Virus record (IMG/VR): IMGVR_UViG_3300028044_000064
Location: 1 to 25,956 of that record
From: a virus
Strand: one strand, 5' to 3'
DNA length: 25,956 nucleotides
Shown: positions 2,000 to 8,544 of the stretch, piece by piece
How positions within the stretch are numbered: position 1 is the first letter of the stretch
How the letters are laid out: each line of letters begins with the position of its first letter
The notes under the pieces: generated by a model
What the model saw: only the letters and a program-made list of their open reading frames with translations
Database searches by the model: none
What the model was told of the DNA's origin: nothing
Translations under genes and position numbers: made by a program

Positions 2000-2442
2000 G
2001 ATACATCCTACCAATTATCGCACTATGCCTCTTAGGCTCCTGCTCAAATGCTAAAAAAGCACAGTACCACTACAAAAAAGCTGTTAAGTTTGGCCTGCAG
2101 TTAGTCCAGGATAGCGATACTATCAGAATAATATCAGTGGATAGCATACCAGTGGTGGTAAATGATACTATCATATGGGAGAAGGTGATCAGAACTAAAG
2201 ATACTATAATCAATTTTAAGAATATCTATGTGCCTAAGACCAGGTGGCAAACTAGAATTGAGTACAGATATAAAACGCAACTTGTAAAGCAGGATGTGCT
2301 CAAATATAAGTACATATATAAAGCAGAAAAAAAGCAGAAAGCAAAAACTAATTGGTTACTCTTTATAATAGGATTTGGCTGTGGGATAGCTCTATTCTTT
2401 ATTCTTAGATTACTAGATAAACTATACAACCCCTTTAAATAA
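1996..2442 (+). CDS. Probable unimolecular spanin (lipoprotein with C-terminal TM)
   Basis: The 148-residue product starts with a lipoprotein signal: a short basic N-terminus, a hydrophobic core, and the lipobox LGSC with the acylated Cys at residue 16. The C-terminus has one transmembrane helix at about residues 119-140 (NWLLFIIGFGCGIALFFIL), followed by a short polar tail. The middle is charged and alternates like beta strands. A protein held to the outer membrane by a lipid and to the inner membrane by a C-terminal helix is the architecture of a u-spanin such as T1 gp11, which fuses inner and outer membranes in the last step of lysis. Its position right after the holin and amidase fits. 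Sequence similarity to known spanins is not claimed. Confidence 0.62.
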   Translation: MRYILPIIALCLLGSCSNAKKAQYHYKKAVKFGLQLVQDSDTIRIISVDSIPVVVNDTIIWEKVIRTKDTIINFKNIYVPKTRWQTRIEYRYKTQLVKQDVLKYKYIYKAEKKQKAKTNWLLFIIGFGCGIALFFILRLLDKLYNPFK

Positions 2443-2446
2443 ACTT

Positions 2447-3319
2447 ATGATTAGACATGGCAAAAATGTTCACGAACTTGTATTAGCAGGTAGTGAAGTT
2501 AAAGTAGCTATTCTTAGTGATTTGCACTGGGATAATCCTCACACTGATAGAGAACTAATCAAAAGGCACCTGGACTATTGTCTAAAAGAGGATATACCTG
2601 TGATGATTAATGGTGATATGTTCTGTTTAATGCAGGGTAGAGGTGATAATAGGCGTAACAAGTCAGACATAAGACCTGAGCACAATAATGCTAGGTATTT
2701 AGATAGTATAGTAGAGACAGCTGTTGATTGGTTCCTACCATACGCTAACATCATTAAGCTAATAGGATACGGTAACCATGAAACTGCTATAATTAAATTT
2801 CAAGAGACTGATATCCTGCAGAGATTTGTAGATCTTCTTAACTTTAAAGCAGGATCTAATGTACAGGTAGGAGGGTATGGTGGATGGCTAATAATAAAGC
2901 AAACATTAGAGACCACTACCTCATCTTTTAGCACTAAGATTAAATACTTCCATGGATCAGGTGGTGGTGGTATAGTTACCAAAGGTGCTATTAATTTAAC
3001 CAGGGCTTTGGAGCTTTATGAAGGTTTCGACGTATTTGTTATGGGCCATATCCATGAAAATTCATGCAGAAATGATGTAAGGGATACAGTAGATAGCCAT
3101 CCAGTATCAGGATACACACTTAAGCAGAAGCAATTACACCTAATGCTCACAGGAACTTATAAAGAGGAGTACGGTGATGGATCTCATGGATGGCATGTTG
3201 AAAGAGGTGCACCCATTAAGCCATTAGGTGGCAGGATACTTACTATTAAATGTGTGAGAGACTCTACCAAAGAAAGAAAAGCTACCAAGTATATAGATAG
3301 TATCAAATTTAATATGTAA
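2447..3319 (+). CDS. Calcineurin-like metallophosphoesterase
   Basis: This 290-residue protein carries the full set of metallophosphoesterase motifs in order: SDLH (Asp25, His27), NGD (Asp57), GNHE (Asn110, His111), a lone histidine in YFHG (His169), and GHIH (His201, His203). These residues bind two metal ions and catalyse phosphodiester or phosphomonoester hydrolysis. The substrate cannot be told from sequence. There is no signal peptide or membrane segment, so it should be cytoplasmic. It follows the spanin-like gene after four bases and is the last gene before a terminator, so it is probably expressed late with the lysis genes. Possible roles include nucleotide or DNA processing or counter-defence. 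Confidence 0.88.
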   Translation: MIRHGKNVHELVLAGSEVKVAILSDLHWDNPHTDRELIKRHLDYCLKEDIPVMINGDMFCLMQGRGDNRRNKSDIRPEHNNARYLDSIVETAVDWFLPYANIIKLIGYGNHETAIIKFQETDILQRFVDLLNFKAGSNVQVGGYGGWLIIKQTLETTTSSFSTKIKYFHGSGGGGIVTKGAINLTRALELYEGFDVFVMGHIHENSCRNDVRDTVDSHPVSGYTLKQKQLHLMLTGTYKEEYGDGSHGWHVERGAPIKPLGGRILTIKCVRDSTKERKATKYIDSIKFNM

Positions 3320-3356
3320 TTTTACAGCAGGTCAATACGCCCAATGTGTTACCTTA

Positions 3357-3400
3357 ACCCCTCTGCATCTTTGGTTAGTTTGGCAGGGGGGTATTTTTTT
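3357..3400 (+). terminator. Rho-independent terminator of the late/lysis operon
   Basis: A 10-bp stem ACCCCTCTGC / GCAGGGGGGT (one G-T wobble) with a 16-base loop is followed almost directly by seven T residues. It lies 37 bases after the metallophosphoesterase stop and separates the late module from the early region. Confidence 0.9.
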
Positions 3401-3477
3401 GCCTTAATTTTACAAAGATTTGTGACACAATTTTCCACTACTCGTATTATGCAAAGTATATTTAGCTTTATTCAGGG

Positions 3478-3522
3478 AATAACCTTATTTTTCAACGCAT
3501 TTTTAAGGCAATAACCTTATTT
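3478..3522. repeat. Two direct copies of a palindromic 13-mer (operator-like)
   Basis: AATAACCTTATTT occurs at 3478-3490 and 3510-3522, exactly 32 bases apart, about three helical turns. Each copy has the inverted arms AATAA/TTATT around CC. Placed 120-160 bases upstream of the early promoter, they look like paired binding sites for a dimeric regulator. No regulator gene is identified in the window. Confidence 0.6.
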
Positions 3523-3556
3523 CTTATGTTTATATTATTACATTTTCTATACATGA

Positions 3557-3571
3557 GGACAAAATATGTCC
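3557..3571. promoter_or_regulatory. Palindrome GGACA-N5-TGTCC upstream of the early promoter
   Basis: A perfect 5-bp inverted repeat around AAATA lies about 40 bases upstream of the -33 element. There is no T-run, so a protein-binding site is more likely than a terminator. The rest of 3401-3667 is AT-rich and holds no convincing ORF. Confidence 0.4.
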
Positions 3572-3609
3572 ACGTTTCTTATTTAGAATGATTATAAATT
3601 ACACAAAAG

Positions 3610-3642
3610 TTGCATACAATTAATTGTTTGTTCGTATATTTG
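3610..3642 (+). promoter_or_regulatory. Bacteroidota-type promoter of the early operon
   Basis: TTG at 3610-3612 and TATATTTG at 3635-3642 match the -33 TTG and -7 TAnnTTTG elements known for Bacteroides and Flavobacterium, with 22 bases between them. The -7 box ends 25 bases before the start codon at 3668, leaving a short AT-rich leader. A strong terminator lies upstream, which supports a new transcription unit here. Confidence 0.72.
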
Positions 3643-3667
3643 TTTCACTAATTTAAACTAACCAATT

Positions 3668-3847
3668 ATGAATGATCAAAAACTAACAGCTGTAGAGTAC
3701 CTACTCCAGCAAATTAACTCAAGCACATCCTTTACAGAAGAGAAATGGAAGCTGATCTGTGATGTGGCTCTAGCCATGGAGAAATCACAATTAATAGCTG
3801 CAGAAATCAAAGCAGTAACAGAAATCTACAAAATTCAAAGAAAATGA
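3668..3847 (+). CDS. Small conserved phage protein (first early gene)
   Basis: This 59-residue protein contains TAVEYLLQQI near the N-terminus and AMEKSQLIAA in the second half. The pattern 'TAVEWL..Q ... MEK.Q...A' occurs in many small proteins of Flavobacterium phages whose function is unknown. The gene at 9281-9499 has the same two blocks and is probably a paralogue. The leader reads AAACTAACCAATTATG, similar to the leaders at 6220 and 9741. The stop overlaps the next start by ATGA. Predicted to be helical and cytoplasmic. Confidence 0.7.
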   Translation: MNDQKLTAVEYLLQQINSSTSFTEEKWKLICDVALAMEKSQLIAAEIKAVTEIYKIQRK

Positions 3848-3981
3848 GAAAGAAACTATCAGACCTTGTGTATTACTTTACACCCCTCACAGATGAACAT
3901 AGAGACATTTTAAGCACCTCTGCTGTGTTTATATTGTTTTGGGTGAGTATTTACACCTTAGCTTACATTACTAACCTTTAA
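3844..3981 (+). CDS. Small membrane protein
   Basis: A 45-residue ORF with a basic start (MRKK), a polar first half and one transmembrane segment at about residues 25-43 (SAVFILFWVSIYTLAYI). It starts by an ATGA overlap with the preceding gene and ends 11 bases before the next, so its position in the operon supports translation. I do not recognise a family. Small early membrane proteins in phages can act in superinfection exclusion or host takeover, but nothing in the sequence shows this. Confidence 0.6.
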   Translation: MRKKLSDLVYYFTPLTDEHRDILSTSAVFILFWVSIYTLAYITNL

Positions 3982-3992
3982 AACGCTTTAAA

Positions 3993-4325
3993 ATGAATTT
4001 AGAAGATTTGCAAATAGAAAAATATACAGCATCCCTTTGGTATGAGGTGGGTAGAATTGAGTTTATACTTGATTTTGAATGGAGCTTTACCTCATTTGAT
4101 GAGGATACTAATGAAACAACAGTTAGTGTATGGCTAGAAAATGGACATCAGTGGCTTAATAACGTATGCCATCCCTTTACACCTAACTCAGATGAGCTAA
4201 AAGAAATTATTAGAGCTATTGAAGATTATATATTAGAAGATCCTGAGCGTTTTGATGTATGGCAGTGGCATTTAGATAATAGAGACTATTTTAATGATCT
4301 TAATAATGATAGAGATGACTACTGA
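3993..4325 (+). CDS. Acidic hypothetical protein
   Basis: This 110-residue, strongly acidic protein is rich in Trp, Asp and Glu (for example WYEVGRIEFILDFEWSF and DVWQWHLDNRDYF). It has no signal or membrane segment. The high negative charge resembles small inhibitors or DNA mimics, but that is only a property of the composition. I do not recognise a family. It overlaps the next gene by 11 bases. Confidence 0.65.
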   Translation: MNLEDLQIEKYTASLWYEVGRIEFILDFEWSFTSFDEDTNETTVSVWLENGHQWLNNVCHPFTPNSDELKEIIRAIEDYILEDPERFDVWQWHLDNRDYFNDLNNDRDDY

Positions 4326-4491
4326 AACTAACCCTACACCCACTACTTTTAGCCTACAGGCAAAGATGGAGTGGTGGAAAAACAAAAAGAGTGAGGGAGA
4401 TAAAGGGGGGAGCTTTAACCTACAGCTCTACATGGACTACCTCAGCTTACAGGATCATAAACCTAAAGATCAGGCAAATGAAAAGATATAA
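4315..4491 (+). CDS. Small hypothetical protein
   Basis: This 58-residue ORF begins MTTETNPTPTTFSLQAK and has a WWKNKKSEGDKGG segment. Start codons exist at 4294, 4306 and 4315; I chose 4315 because it gives the smallest overlap with the preceding gene (11 bases), as elsewhere in this operon, and removes an odd MILIMIE leader. It overlaps the following gene by 14 bases. No family is recognised. Confidence 0.5.
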   Translation: MTTETNPTPTTFSLQAKMEWWKNKKSEGDKGGSFNLQLYMDYLSLQDHKPKDQANEKI

Positions 4492-4633
4492 AGTAACCTA
4501 TAACTATTTTGATGGTGGTAAAAAAAGGATAGCTGTCAAAATACTAGAAGCCTTGGATAGAGACCACGCAATAATGATAATGGCTATGTGGCCAAAACTA
4601 ATTTTAAAAGTAGAACAGTATGAAAAAATATAG
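4478..4633 (+). CDS. Small basic hypothetical protein
   Basis: A 51-residue basic protein starting MKRYKVTYNYFDGGKKRIAV. The frame is open further upstream to an ATG at 4391, but that start would overlap the preceding gene by about 100 bases; 4478 gives the usual short overlap. The YKVTYNYFDGG...IAVKILEALD pattern suggests a small alpha/beta fold. Function unknown. Confidence 0.52.
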   Translation: MKRYKVTYNYFDGGKKRIAVKILEALDRDHAIMIMAMWPKLILKVEQYEKI

Positions 4634-4790
4634 AGTATGGCTAGAGGATAGCGTAGAGCCTGATGGTGGCTCATGGTGGAATTGCTACCTAGGCAAAGAT
4701 GGCAAGCTGCATGATTACATCTTCACAGATGAGCAAGCAGATACACCTCAGTGGTATATTGATAATGGTTATATAGTAGAAGAGTTATGA
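4620..4790 (+). CDS. Small hypothetical protein
   Basis: A 56-residue ORF, MKKYRVWLEDSVEPDGGSWW at the start, rich in Trp, Tyr and acidic residues. It overlaps the gene before it by 14 bases and ends in an ATGA overlap with the HNH-like gene, which argues that it is really translated. No signal peptide, membrane segment or known motif is visible. Confidence 0.6.
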   Translation: MKKYRVWLEDSVEPDGGSWWNCYLGKDGKLHDYIFTDEQADTPQWYIDNGYIVEEL

Positions 4791-5407
4791 ATATCAAAGC
4801 AGAAGTGATTAAAAGATACCCATTTGAGAGTACAGCTGTAATAGCTAAGGAATTAGGGATAACAATATCAAAGGTGTATAATATCGCATGGGCCTATAAG
4901 ATACATAAGGACATCAACTACCTTAAGACTGCAGCAAGTGGTAGATATAAGGCAGGTATGAGAAGTGGTGAGGCCTTCCAATTTAAGCCAGGGCACACAC
5001 CTTACAACAAAGGTAAAAAGATGCCTGCAGAAACTTATGAGAAGGTAAAAAATGCAATGTTTAAGAAAGGTAATAAGCCATTTAATACTAAACCTGTAGG
5101 TACCATTAATATAAGAGCAGATAATACAGGTAGATTTTACCAATATATCAAAATTAAAGATAGCCACTGGGAGTTATTACAACGGCATATATGGACTCAG
5201 GCAAATGGAGAAATTCCTGCAGGATATGTAGTAAATTTTATAGATGGTAACTACATGAACTGTGAGCTTAATAATTTGCAGTTAAAGACCAGGGGAGAAA
5301 TGGCAATAATGAACAGCATACACAGGTACCCTGCAGAGGTTAGGGACTTAATTAAATTAAACAATAAACTAAAAGCAAAAACAAATGGCAAACAACAAAC
5401 TAAGTGA
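4787..5407 (+). CDS. HNH endonuclease-like protein with N-terminal HTH
   Basis: This 206-residue protein has an N-terminal helix-turn-helix-like segment (about residues 15-40, IAKELGITISKVYNIAWAYK), a linker with the FKPGHTPYNKGKKMP motif often seen ahead of HNH domains, and an HNH_3-like core at 125-175: WELLQRHIWTQANGEIPAGY, then NFIDGNYMN and LNNLQLKTRGE. In the canonical family a histidine stands in front of the 'DGN' motif; here the position is Phe151 (FIDGN), while His134 and Asn163 remain. It may be a homing-type nuclease, a structure-specific phage nuclease, or a DNA-binding derivative that has lost activity. It sits in an ATGA-coupled early operon and overlaps the next gene by 23 bases. 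Confidence 0.75.
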   Translation: MNIKAEVIKRYPFESTAVIAKELGITISKVYNIAWAYKIHKDINYLKTAASGRYKAGMRSGEAFQFKPGHTPYNKGKKMPAETYEKVKNAMFKKGNKPFNTKPVGTINIRADNTGRFYQYIKIKDSHWELLQRHIWTQANGEIPAGYVVNFIDGNYMNCELNNLQLKTRGEMAIMNSIHRYPAEVRDLIKLNNKLKAKTNGKQQTK

Positions 5408-5627
5408 TCTAAGAGATCATATTTTCATGGCACTAGAAAGATTATCTGATGAGGGCATGACAGCTGAGCAGGTAGCAAGTGAAGTAGACAAGGCTAAAGC
5501 AATAGCACAGCTCAGTGCTTCTATTATAGCCAGTGCTAAAGTCGAGATAGATTATATCAATACAGTAGGATTAGTGGATAGTCAAAGTGAGCTATTCAAA
5601 TCAGTAAACCCTAAGCTTTTATCATGA
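5385..5627 (+). CDS. Small conserved phage protein
   Basis: An 80-residue, mainly helical protein with LRDHIFMALERLSDEGMTAE followed by VDKAKAIAQLSASIIASAKV. The 'LRDH.F..LERL ... KA.AI......I...AK.E' pattern is widespread in small phage proteins of unknown function from several host phyla. It has no membrane segment. It overlaps the HNH-like gene by 23 bases and is coupled by ATGA to the DnaA-like gene. Confidence 0.72.
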   Translation: MANNKLSDLRDHIFMALERLSDEGMTAEQVASEVDKAKAIAQLSASIIASAKVEIDYINTVGLVDSQSELFKSVNPKLLS

Positions 5628-5986
5628 GCAGATTAGAAGAGGTGCAGTATGTTATAGAAAAATATGACTTAAAAGAAAAGGGTAGATATATGCACATGAT
5701 TTATAAAAGATATTACCTATATAATGTGCTCAGAAAAGATGGCATGACCTTATCACAGATAGGTAGGCTATTTAATCAAAGCCATTGCACTGTATTAAAT
5801 GGAATTAAAAAGCATGAGGATTACATGGCTTACAAAGATCCTGCTTATATGTTGCACACTAGGGACCTAAGGGAAATCTTTGTACTACCACAATACTATA
5901 TGCCACTAAAACAAACCATATTAGAGATATATACCATTGAGAAATTAGAGATACTTAAAGAACAGATTAGGTGCAATTATTACTAA
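5624..5986 (+). CDS. DnaA domain IV-like DNA-binding protein
   Basis: This 120-residue protein has a segment at residues 41-62, MTLSQIGRLFNQSHCTVLNG, that matches the signature helix-turn-helix of DnaA domain IV (LS..EIG..F...H.TV), the part of the bacterial initiator that reads DnaA boxes. There is no AAA+ ATPase region, so it is a stand-alone DNA-binding module. The C-terminal half (ETIYTIEKLEILKEQI-like helices) may dimerise. It is the last gene before the iteron-bearing gap at 5987-6219 and the primase-helicase gene, which suggests a role in origin recognition or control of replication genes. That role is inferred from position. Confidence 0.68.
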   Translation: MSRLEEVQYVIEKYDLKEKGRYMHMIYKRYYLYNVLRKDGMTLSQIGRLFNQSHCTVLNGIKKHEDYMAYKDPAYMLHTRDLREIFVLPQYYMPLKQTILEIYTIEKLEILKEQIRCNYY

Positions 5987-6067
5987 GAAATGAAGCTATG
6001 ACAAATTCTCTTATTAGGGGAGGCTGGGAAAGATTTGAAAATTCAAATATTTTTTTTCGTTTTATTT

Positions 6068-6182
6068 CTTGTCATCTTGTCATAAAAACGCTAATAGTCA
6101 ATATCAGTGCACTTATTGCTAAAAAAAACTTGTCCTAAACTTGTCATAAACCCGTCATAAAATATAATAAACTTGTCATTTA
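6068..6182. repeat. 11-bp iteron-like repeats CTTGTCATAAA (candidate origin/operator)
   Basis: Copies are at 6068-6075 (CTTGTCAT), 6076-6086 (CTTGTCATAAA), 6129-6139 (CTTGTCCTAAA), 6140-6150 (CTTGTCATAAA), 6151-6161 (CCCGTCATAAA) and 6172-6182 (CTTGTCATTTA); 6162-6171 (ATATAATAAA) looks like a decayed unit. The central units are in tandem with an 11-base period, one helical turn, as in replication iterons. A very AT-rich stretch with an eight-T run lies just upstream (about 6041-6067). The gap 5987-6219 holds no convincing gene. Confidence 0.7.
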
Positions 6183-6201
6183 AGAATAATGATTACATTT
6201 A
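6173..6201 (+). promoter_or_regulatory. Possible promoter of the primase-helicase gene
   Basis: TTG at 6173-6175, inside the last iteron, is followed after 18 bases by TACATTTA at 6194-6201, one mismatch from TAnnTTTG. The start codon at 6220 is 18 bases further on. Overlap of the -33 element with an iteron suggests that whatever binds the repeats also controls this gene. Confidence 0.45.
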
Positions 6202-6219
6202 CAGCCCAATTAACTAACT

Positions 6220-8544
6220 ATGAACATATCTGTATTTAAAAGCCTATTTAACTCTAAAGAAACCCCCTACACTCAGGATGTAGTGGATGTTTACAACAGG
6301 ATAAAGGATGGCTACCCTGAGCTTATTGAAAAGATAACAGCTCTTAGAGCTATGAAAGATGATGATACTAACTATAGCAGCTTAAAAAATAGCCTTAGAG
6401 CTATCATGTTTAATGGCACCTTTAATGAACGTAATGATAACGGCCTTATTGAGCACTCAGGGCTTTGTATCTTAGACTTTGATGATTATCCTAGCAGTAA
6501 GGTAATGAAAGCTGAGAAGGCTAGACTAATGGAATGCCCTAATGTCTTTATGATATTTGTATCACCATCAGGTAAAGGCTTAAAGTGCGTGATTAAGATA
6601 CCACCATCTGATAAATTTACACATAAGAGAAGGTTTAAAGCCTTTCAGGAGTTTATTGATAGTGATTACTTTGATGCATCCAGCTGTAATGTTAGCAGGG
6701 TATGTTTTGAAAGCTATGACCCTAATGCTTATATAAATTTAGATGCTGAGGTATTTAATCTTATAGAAGAGGAGAAAGGGCATAGCTCTTTTGAGAGAGT
6801 GCCAGTGCTACCCATGACTAATGAAGGTAAGATTATTGAAAATATAATGAAGTTTAACCATGGAGATATATCTATGGGTAGAAATAATTGGGTATTTAAA
6901 GTGGCTAGCTGTTTTTCGGAGTATGGCATAAGTGAGAATACTGCTAAGTTATACCTCTATCAATTTAGTGATAAAGGATTTAGCCAAATAGAAATAAATA
7001 CCTGTGTAGGATCTGCTTACAAGCGAAGCAATAAAAACACTAAGTATTTTGAGGATAAAGAAACTATCTTAAAGGTTAAATCTAAACTAAAGGAAGGGAT
7101 TACACCTGGTGATATCTCTAAGCAGTTAGATATTAAGCCTGATGTGATAGAGGATGTGAAAAAAGAGGTAGCTAATAGTGAGGATACGTTTTGGGCTATT
7201 AGTGATAAGAAAGTTATCTCAGTGGATCCTATGAAGTATAGAGACTTCCTTAATAAATACGGCTTTCAAAAATACTACCCTGAAAGAGCAGAGAGATCTA
7301 CATTTGTAAGGGTGGTAGAGAATAAAGTTAATCTTAGCTCAGTGGATCAGATAAAGGATTTTGTACTAGGGCATCTAATGAAGCAGAAACAAGTGGATGT
7401 ATGGAACTACTGCAGTAAATCACCCTACCTCTTTACAGATGGGCACCTATCAATGCTAGATCCTATTGAGCTAATGATGCTGCAGGATACTAAGGATGTG
7501 AGCTTTATTCCTTATCGTAATGGAGTGGTTAAGATTACTAAGAATAAAGTGGATATAGTACCGTACATAGATATAGATGGGTACATTTGGGATAGGCAAA
7601 TTATAGACAGGAACTACAAGCCTACTAAGAACATTGAAAATGATTTTAAGAGCTTTGTATCCAAAGTATCTGCAGATGATGAGCAGAGGGTGAATGCTTT
7701 AGAGACTACCCTAGGATATTTACTTCATACCTACAAAGATAAAACAGATCAGAAAGCAATAATTTTTAATGATCAGGAGATAAATGATAATCCTAATGGA
7801 GGGAGTGGTAAGAGCTTAGTGCTAACTGCTATTGGTAAGATTAGAAATATAGTTAAGATAGATGGTAAAAGTTTCAACCCACAGAAAAGTGACTTTGTTT
7901 ATCAGAGGGTGAATTTAGATAGTCAGATCCTAGCCTTTGATGATGTAAAAAAGAACTTTGATTTTGAGCAGCTATTCTCACTGATCTCAGAAGGGATTAC
8001 AGTGAACAGAAAGAATAAGGATGAGATATTTATCCCATTTGAACGCTCCCCAAAGATTGTGATTACTACCAACTATGTAATTAATGGTGCAGGTGGTAGC
8101 CATGATAGGAGAAGGCACGAAATAGAGTTCAATCAATACTTTAATGCTCAAAGAAGCCCACTAGATGAGTATGGTAGGTTATTATTTGACCACTGGACTG
8201 CAGTAGATTGGTTAATCTTTGATAACTACATGATAAGTAACCTGCAGAAATTCCTATCAATGGGCTTAGTTAAGTCCAAGGCTATTAATGCAGATGATAA
8301 ACGCTTAATTTCAGCTACTAATAAGGAGTTTTATGATTACGCTATAGAGGGCAATATCACAATAGATGTGATGCACTATAATAATGCTTCTATTCAGGAC
8401 TTCCAAACTTACACAGGTGGATGGAGAGATCTTAACACACAAAGATATTTAAAGTGGATAAATGAATACTGTAAATTTAAGAAGTATGATTTAAAAAAAC
8501 ATAAGAATGTAGGAGGTAGATACTTTATAATAACTAAGATATGA
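6220..8544 (+). CDS. Primase-helicase (VirE-N/BT4734-like plus SF3-like helicase)
   Basis: This 774-residue protein combines two parts. Residues ~1-180 resemble the BT4734-like/VirE N-terminal domain found with primases in Bacteroidota phages and mobile elements, with LCILDFDDYP and the FVSPSGKGLKCVIKI motif typical of archaeo-eukaryotic-type primases. The C-terminal part is a superfamily 3-type helicase: Walker A GGSGKS (527-532), Walker B ILAFDDV (570-576), and the sensor motif KIVITTNY (612-619) followed by an arginine-rich HDRRRHEIEF. Such proteins open the origin and prime synthesis. The gene follows iteron-like repeats, has its own putative promoter, and is ATGA-coupled to the next gene. 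Polymerase is not encoded in the window. Confidence 0.85.
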   Translation: MNISVFKSLFNSKETPYTQDVVDVYNRIKDGYPELIEKITALRAMKDDDTNYSSLKNSLRAIMFNGTFNERNDNGLIEHSGLCILDFDDYPSSKVMKAEKARLMECPNVFMIFVSPSGKGLKCVIKIPPSDKFTHKRRFKAFQEFIDSDYFDASSCNVSRVCFESYDPNAYINLDAEVFNLIEEEKGHSSFERVPVLPMTNEGKIIENIMKFNHGDISMGRNNWVFKVASCFSEYGISENTAKLYLYQFSDKGFSQIEINTCVGSAYKRSNKNTKYFEDKETILKVKSKLKEGITPGDISKQLDIKPDVIEDVKKEVANSEDTFWAISDKKVISVDPMKYRDFLNKYGFQKYYPERAERSTFVRVVENKVNLSSVDQIKDFVLGHLMKQKQVDVWNYCSKSPYLFTDGHLSMLDPIELMMLQDTKDVSFIPYRNGVVKITKNKVDIVPYIDIDGYIWDRQIIDRNYKPTKNIENDFKSFVSKVSADDEQRVNALETTLGYLLHTYKDKTDQKAIIFNDQEINDNPNGGSGKSLVLTAIGKIRNIVKIDGKSFNPQKSDFVYQRVNLDSQILAFDDVKKNFDFEQLFSLISEGITVNRKNKDEIFIPFERSPKIVITTNYVINGAGGSHDRRRHEIEFNQYFNAQRSPLDEYGRLLFDHWTAVDWLIFDNYMISNLQKFLSMGLVKSKAINADDKRLISATNKEFYDYAIEGNITIDVMHYNNASIQDFQTYTGGWRDLNTQRYLKWINEYCKFKKYDLKKHKNVGGRYFIITKI

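Follow-up and report, generated by a model that had tools for sequence, protein, structure and literature searches.

A conserved Fur-type box, helically phased with the -7 element, in an early control region of phages and before iron-using genes of Flavobacteriales

Host iron regulators are known to act on genes carried by phages: Fur controls the Shiga-toxin 1 promoter, and DtxR controls diphtheria toxin. In Neisseria, Fur directly activates transcription from an upstream site, and in the class I promoters of Escherichia coli another activator, CRP, is placed at about -61.5, -71.5 or -82.5. To our knowledge, neither phage early promoters nor helical phasing have been described for the activation by Fur in Neisseria or Salmonella.

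The closest described system is the Fur regulon of Riemerella anatipestifer. A Fur box of the form ATTTAGAATTATTCTAAAT was predicted by software in this bacterium, and EMSA showed binding of Fur to four promoters that contain variants of this consensus (PMC5609570); a further box, ATTTAGAATTATCCTAAAT of rhuB, was bound in the same kind of assay (PMC10986502), and the E. coli-type consensus has also been quoted as the Riemerella Fur box (PMC7976709). Respiratory genes fall in iron-restricted Riemerella (PMC5609570, Table 2), and many iron-using genes of R. anatipestifer still fall under iron restriction in a fur mutant (PMC5609570), which speaks against Fur proper as sole regulator there and leaves room for a second protein of the Fur family or for indirect control. 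The quinol:cytochrome c oxidoreductase genes of Elizabethkingia are 4.1-8.6-fold higher in iron-rich cells (PMC7221216), and Fur is a direct activator of hilD in Salmonella (PMC3089636).

Here we describe a control region in an IMG/VR virus record (IMGVR_UViG_3300028044_000064); the whole stretch analysed, 25,956 bases, is called the window. With the class I promoters of CRP this region has in common that the allowed positions upstream of the core promoter lie one helical turn apart; there, the regulator family and the sigma factor are different, and contact with the polymerase is here proposed from the phasing. As with Shiga-toxin 1 and diphtheria toxin, a host iron regulator would act on a phage-carried gene, but those are repressed cargo genes, whereas the target here is a replication-side operon that is probably activated. 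The Fur-activated genes of Neisseria and Salmonella hilD, which belong to other phyla and another promoter type, would share with it the raising of target transcription by metal-bound Fur. The same 19-bp inverted repeat as in the R. anatipestifer regulon is found (17 of 18 positions in the window), but the targets listed there are host genes, several of them for iron uptake, whose start codons are no farther than about 100 bp from the box (PMC5609570, PMC10986502), whereas here it belongs to an early promoter and lies upstream of the -33 element at a phased distance.

The early control region and its Fur-type box

The features of the region, in window coordinates, are as follows.

3357..3401, plus strand: intrinsic-terminator-like hairpin with a T run, 3' of the upstream lysis/metallophosphatase genes
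3473..3486, no strand assigned: repeat 1, CAGG-N6-CCTT, overlapping the first 13-mer (3478-3490)
3505..3518, no strand assigned: repeat 2, AAGG-N6-CCTT, overlapping the second 13-mer (3510-3522)
3557..3571, no strand assigned: palindrome GGACA-N5-TGTCC, candidate accessory operator, 9 nt before the box
3581..3599, plus strand: Fur-type box ATTTAGAATGATTATAAAT, its end 35 nt before the -7 element
3610..3612, plus strand: -33 element TTG of a Bacteroidetes-type promoter, assigned by sequence
3635..3642, plus strand: -7 element TATATTTG, the same in all 10 family members that were aligned
3668..3847, plus strand: first gene behind the promoter (ATG at 3668; 59 aa, no family found)

The region is preceded by holin-, amidase/endolysin- and metallophosphatase-type genes; farther to the right lie genes for an HNH nuclease, a DnaA_C-like HTH protein, a BT4734-type primase, a VRR-like nuclease, ERF and an exonuclease. 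Its site, behind a terminator-like hairpin after lysis-type genes and before replication and recombination genes, bears out the preliminary description of this DNA as an early control region. The hairpin folds as RNA with -19.6 kcal/mol (z -2.75), a terminator scan detected a shorter form of it, and several relatives carry a similar sequence. The host-type promoter, TTG at 3610-3612 followed by N22 and TATATTTG at 3635-3642, was also correctly described, and it has the -33 TTG and -7 TAnnTTTG expected for the primary sigma factor of Bacteroidetes. In an alignment of 10 family members the TT of the -33 element is invariant and its G is kept in at least 90%. From these elements transcription would be predicted to start near 3648, placing the centre of the box near -58.

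A blastn search with window positions 2400-6400 found no relative among isolate phages, and primase relatives, sought in the genome_contigs collection for host identification, were not found there. The relatives considered below are 80 viral loci brought in by the primase. Two of them, L014 and L016, are parts of one 37,405-base contig on which the primase is present twice, and this relative is therefore taken to be terminally redundant, each unit measuring about 27.8 kb; the stretch of it that the window lacks carries smaller ORFs in addition to one portal gene and one virion-structural gene.

The Fur-type box is the best-conserved control element of the region. It agrees at 17 of 18 defined positions with the predicted Riemerella Fur-box consensus, which was used in the form of a 19-bp inverted repeat (ATTTAGAAT-N-ATTCTAAAT); relatives L072 and L075 agree with it at all 18 positions. 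The pattern ATTTAGAATNATT[AC]TAAAT did not arise in 20000 simulations of the region, which makes this 19-mer a stronger feature than the 13-mers or the palindrome. When the region was compared by blastn, a short block starting near 3572, which contains the box, extended to distant relatives. At a threshold of at least 15 of 18 positions, the box was present in 41 of the 50 primase relatives examined (36 distinct control regions), 2.0-4.3 kb before the primase. It was absent at this threshold from nine, which have upstream sequence of at least 8 kb (L047, L048), about 3 kb (L056, L061, L069) or 1.9-2.4 kb (the others); one of the listings consulted took in 11 loci irrespective of upstream length. 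Across the family (26 members, counting the window), mean agreement is 99% over the first 15 positions of the box and 57-60% over the 54 bases farther upstream; the comparison was ungapped, and differing spacings depress the upstream figure.

The 13-mers and the palindrome, on which the preliminary description centred, are present as claimed: AATAACCTTATTT occurs exactly at 3478-3490 and 3510-3522, its starts 32 bases apart, and GGACAAAATATGTCC (GGACA-N5-TGTCC) at 3557-3571. No further exact copy of the 13-mer exists elsewhere in the window. When the 263-base region was simulated 2000 times by a first-order Markov model, 37 of the simulations contained an exact 13-mer repeat and 16 of 2000 a 5-N5-5 palindrome whose arms each had three or more G/C; the GGACA palindrome with at most one mismatch appeared in 22 of 100 shuffles of the whole window. 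Judging from these frequencies, the repeat and the palindrome are only moderately unusual. Among the 80 relatives, exact 13-mers were found only in L003, which is 98% identical to the window across the region, and the 13-mer was therefore rejected as the main operator. The earlier interpretation thus holds for the control region and its promoter but not for the poorly conserved 13-mers, and it did not list the Fur-type box, which is conserved.

What the relatives preserve around the 13-mers is AAGG-N6-CCTT, present at no fewer than 7 of 8 positions in 18 of the 26 family members, and the palindrome register of the preliminary description, AATAA-CC-TTATT, was rejected for this reason. The 13-mers sit within these repeats, of which nine pairs were found at a spacing of 32-33 bp (450 nt were scanned in members with no detected terminator, and one of the three repeats of L031 lies far upstream). 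In the window, as in L003, 9 nt separate GGACAAAATATGTCC from the box; in L071, L091, L174 and L178 the gap is 19-20 nt, a difference of about one helical turn. Matches to GGACA in L056, L060 and L065 were not counted as the same element, because their shared flanks look coding and no box stands beside them (judged by eye). Bacteroidetes LexA boxes, linked to phage-like repressors, have the forms GGA-N5-TCC and CTAA-N5-TTAG (PMC8565304). They are palindromic like the candidate operator GGACA-N5-TGTCC, but neither motif occurs in 3405-3667 (the nearest in the window are at 5207 and 20883), and the palindrome was rejected as a LexA site on account of its spacing (GGA-N9-TCC). A second factor, specific to the phage, probably has its operators in the AAGG-N6-CCTT repeats and the GGACA palindrome. 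The protein encoded at 5624-5986, with a DnaA C-terminal-like HTH (E=1e-5, under the Pfam cut-off), is a candidate binder of the repeats.

Further arrangements were observed in other loci. Several relatives (L004, L005, L014, L017, L020 and others) have another conserved stretch, approximately AACATAGTAGCTAGAATGGTGGCATAATGTATAATATAGCTAACATATTA, between terminator and box, which is absent from the window. Two boxes in tandem, at a spacing of exactly 64 nt or some six turns of the helix, stand upstream of early genes in L073 (6311/6375), L074 (5745/5809) and L076 (91/155), and several Fur-type boxes lie within about 150 nt in L158 (from 2211 onward) and L146 (28 and 98). Three phage contigs of 50-55 kb (L126, L156, L194) carry perfect 27-bp palindromes, CCTTATTTAGAAT-N-ATTCTAAATAAGG; a -7 element lies at a distance of 13-14 nt and, in L126, another at 34 nt on the other side. 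The palindromes of L156 and L194 precede genes that look similar by eye.

Helical phasing in viral and bacterial sequences

In a scan of viral contigs, the box with a CCTT flank was found in at least 120 stretches and the reversed box in none, and at the loci so found the -7 element lies at preferred distances from the box. A flank-free scan, for the box and TAnnTTTG at 28-58 nt, again gave at least 120 stretches; a scrambled box under the same -7 rule gave none in the viral contigs. The distances were analysed in 87 newly fetched loci out of these stretches, reduced to 52 by removal of sites at least 60% identical over 50 nt. The -7 element was at 34-35 nt in 16 of them, at 44-46 nt in 9 and at 55-56 nt in 17, so that 42 of the 52 are phased and 10 lie elsewhere. 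In a Rayleigh test at 10.5 bp, R was 0.72 (p~2e-12); a harsher identity cut of 50% left 25 sites with R=0.55 (p~6e-4), and R was 0.70 when the set was widened to 69 non-redundant sites. The distances differ by whole helical turns, as for a phased upstream activator, and such preference at 10.5 bp points to helical phasing of the kind typical of a protein touching RNA polymerase.

Nearly the same phase was found for all variants of the box arms: forward-asymmetric (76 sites, R=0.77), symmetric (35 sites, R=0.67) and reverse-asymmetric (43 sites, R=0.63), these three sets being pooled from several scans, and a fourth variant with TTATAAT arms (47 sites, R=0.65). A strict orientation rule for asymmetric boxes was abandoned as not absolute, the reverse form occurring in 73 stretches of the whole viral collection and being phased as well. 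Natural changes of spacing are also seen: at one promoter the box is 34 nt from the -7 element in L080 and 44 nt in L081 and L082, and the window's own family includes distances of both 45 nt (L023 and L038) and 34-35 nt (35 nt in the window).

The same arrangement is observed in bacteria. A scan of the genome_contigs collection for the R. anatipestifer consensus gave at least 119 stretches; titles were obtained for 80 (L206-L285), of which 45 were taken as Bacteroidetes. The 62 ORFs beside these 45 boxes matched 68 families in all, among them seven TonB plug proteins, three NqrA, three cytochrome c and one SufBD, and in L211 the box is followed by a FUR-family gene; the motif thus marks an iron-related regulon in the phylum. 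A strict pattern of box and -7 element matched seven times, in 6 of 296 Bacteroidota genomes, and a looser one 40 times, in 31 of 196 Flavobacteriales genomes, with no match for the reversed control. Among the 30 host loci returned from these 40 matches, 26 have the box at 35-37, 45-47 or 54-56 nt, and four at 29 nt, the latter apparently within one coding gene (by eye). Many loci come from close relatives; the 18 non-redundant ones give R=0.73 (p~8e-5), with spacings centred about 1 bp later than in the phages.

The Flavobacteriales genes that follow this arrangement are for the most part iron-using, with at least 23 such genes among the 26 ORFs scanned. Downstream of the boxes we found 13 cytochromes c, seven NqrA, three 4Fe-4S ferredoxins and one HmuY of the heme-uptake type, and one further ORF, judged by eye, looks like a membrane subunit of succinate dehydrogenase; the 26 are what remains of 28 after two coding-looking 29-nt matches were set aside, the two other 29-nt matches having no ORF. 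The ferredoxin genes of L447, L448 and L449, with a phased box at 35-36 nt, are in small Flavobacteriales genomes. An earlier set of ten phased examples comprised seven cytochromes c, NqrA, glutamyl-tRNA reductase and a NADH dehydrogenase 20-kDa subunit; it was chosen by hand, loci beyond L285 are of unlisted organism, and at least two phased examples before proteins with no evident iron role by eye (L262, L271) were left out. Host nqrA genes chosen regardless of a box had a degenerate one in 3 of 10 cases, at 46, 47 and 56 nt, and none in 7 (the ten being the matches over the cut-off, with six under it omitted).

The regulator and the direction of control

The preliminary description saw no regulator in the window, and this is confirmed for the FUR family: neither the window nor any of 41 further IMG/VR records matches it (0 of 42), though most of these may be fragments. 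The records include G005, the terminally redundant and apparently complete relative of about 27.8 kb per unit. Since four sampled Bacteroidota genomes contain 1-4 Fur-family genes each, the host Fur family is the likeliest source of the binder, and we infer that in the phage's own host this is a Fur-family protein.

The reading that we consider reasonably probable is that the region is an iron-gated early promoter, activated by a host Fur-family regulator when iron is plentiful. A host-encoded protein of this family would bind at 3581-3599, directly upstream of the -33 element, on a face of the helix from which it could touch RNA polymerase, and would activate early transcription once the cell holds enough iron; the phage would have this arrangement in common with the iron-using respiratory genes of the host.

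A possible, if rather doubtful, variant is that a different Fur-family member binds, above all PerR or a heme- or manganese-sensing paralogue, and that the signal is the oxidative or heme state of the cell and not free iron. Cellulophaga phages use ATTTATAATTATTATAAAT, with a core TTATAAT-N-ATTATAA equal to the Bacillus PerR box, and 62 viral stretches with both arms of the TTATAAT type show the same phasing. The presence of up to four Fur-family genes per sampled genome, and the iron response that iron-using genes keep in the R. anatipestifer fur mutant, also support this variant. However, the box of the window retains one TTAGAAT arm as in the published Fur box, the other being shifted toward the PerR type, and the symmetric boxes of Bacteroidetes adjoin TonB plug proteins (7 of 62 ORFs) and a FUR-family gene.

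Fur is best known as a repressor, and the regulator might instead repress from its upstream site, the early genes being silent in iron-rich cells and opened on starvation. In some phages the box does lie over or adjoining the -7 element, and there repression is likelier. In the bacterial genomes, boxes placed on or close to the -7 element are followed by nine ORFs, which include an Fe-S assembly protein and a TonB receptor, both in keeping with repression, together with an aldehyde dehydrogenase, a pyridine-nucleotide oxidoreductase and three proteins with no family; like the phased set, this one numbered ten hand-chosen proteins. Boxes up to 30 nt from a -7 element gave four matches in 60 genomes, two of them coding-looking (the 29-nt type), against one in the control, and the division of host promoters into phased and -7-overlapping therefore rests on the small earlier set. 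We regard repression of the early promoter as unlikely, as its box is set at phased distances, clear of the core promoter, and the host genes with this arrangement are of kinds reported to be higher in high iron, the opposite of repression by Fe-Fur.

It is more improbable still that a phage-encoded protein binds the box, the likeness of the box to Fur sites reflecting a captured Fur-like domain or convergence. Two Polaribacter phages, Freya_1 and Danklef_1, do encode a FUR-family protein (32 bits; L200:4082-4510 and L201:44806-45234) and each has three boxes, which stand 3, 5 and 16 nt from -7 elements that precede genes of the structural side; they possibly represent phages with a Fur circuit of their own. 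The whole words ferric, Fur, iron, promoter and regulator do not occur in the main text of the paper describing them. These are, however, the only two matches among 46 records (the window and 45 loci out of about 200), a phage-encoded Fur having been rejected on this ground; the family is lacking from the window, the 41 IMG/VR records, Arctus_1 and laban6-1, and the same phased site precedes host genes. Finally, that the region serves chiefly, through iterons, as an origin of replication or a site of packaging, the box being incidental, is scarcely credible: the region is intergenic and AT-rich, with short repeats at a 32-bp interval and a DnaA_C-like HTH protein (below the Pfam cut-off) in the early operon, but it is the box and promoter that are conserved and not the repeats, and the phasing to the -7 element would be left unexplained.

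The arrangement is also present in cultivated phages, which makes the model of an iron-gated, Fur-activated promoter testable. Cellulophaga phages phi19:1, phi10:1 and Nekkels_1 have one box (16/18) that lies 34 nt from a rightward and 56 nt from a leftward -7 element. The annotated flanking genes start upstream of both -7 elements in phi19:1 and phi10:1 but downstream in Nekkels_1, and because of the latter the starts in the former two are taken as misassigned. In Leeuwenhoekiella phage Arctus_1 the box (16/18), located where an S24-type gene adjoins the rightward operon, precedes a -7 element by 56 nt, and in Flavobacterium phage laban6-1 it is 57 nt (16/18) before the -7 element of the leftward operon, adjoining an HTH regulator gene. 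Boxes in Lak-B1 (no -7 element nearby) and DAC19 (inside a gene) lend no support to the model.

The phenomenon is far more general than the original finding suggested. In the open-access literature, searched by title and start of abstract (most subscription papers lie outside this scope), we found neither Fur-type boxes in early promoters of Bacteroidetes phages nor phased Fur-type boxes before iron-using genes in Bacteroidetes, and a phased Fur-type promoter class is not described in the literature searched. It is, in our judgement, an evenly balanced question whether many Bacteroidetes phages use a host Fur-family activator, through a promoter class common with respiratory and heme genes of the host and a rule of whole helical turns, with iron gating infection phylum-wide.

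Taken together, our observations suggest that the virus times its attack by the iron state of the host. If this is true, a large group of phages would have their early transcription wired to the iron (or redox) sensor of the host, and phage productivity would be linked to iron supply. Bacteroidetes would then also possess a class of promoters turned on via a Fur-type box according to simple rules of position.
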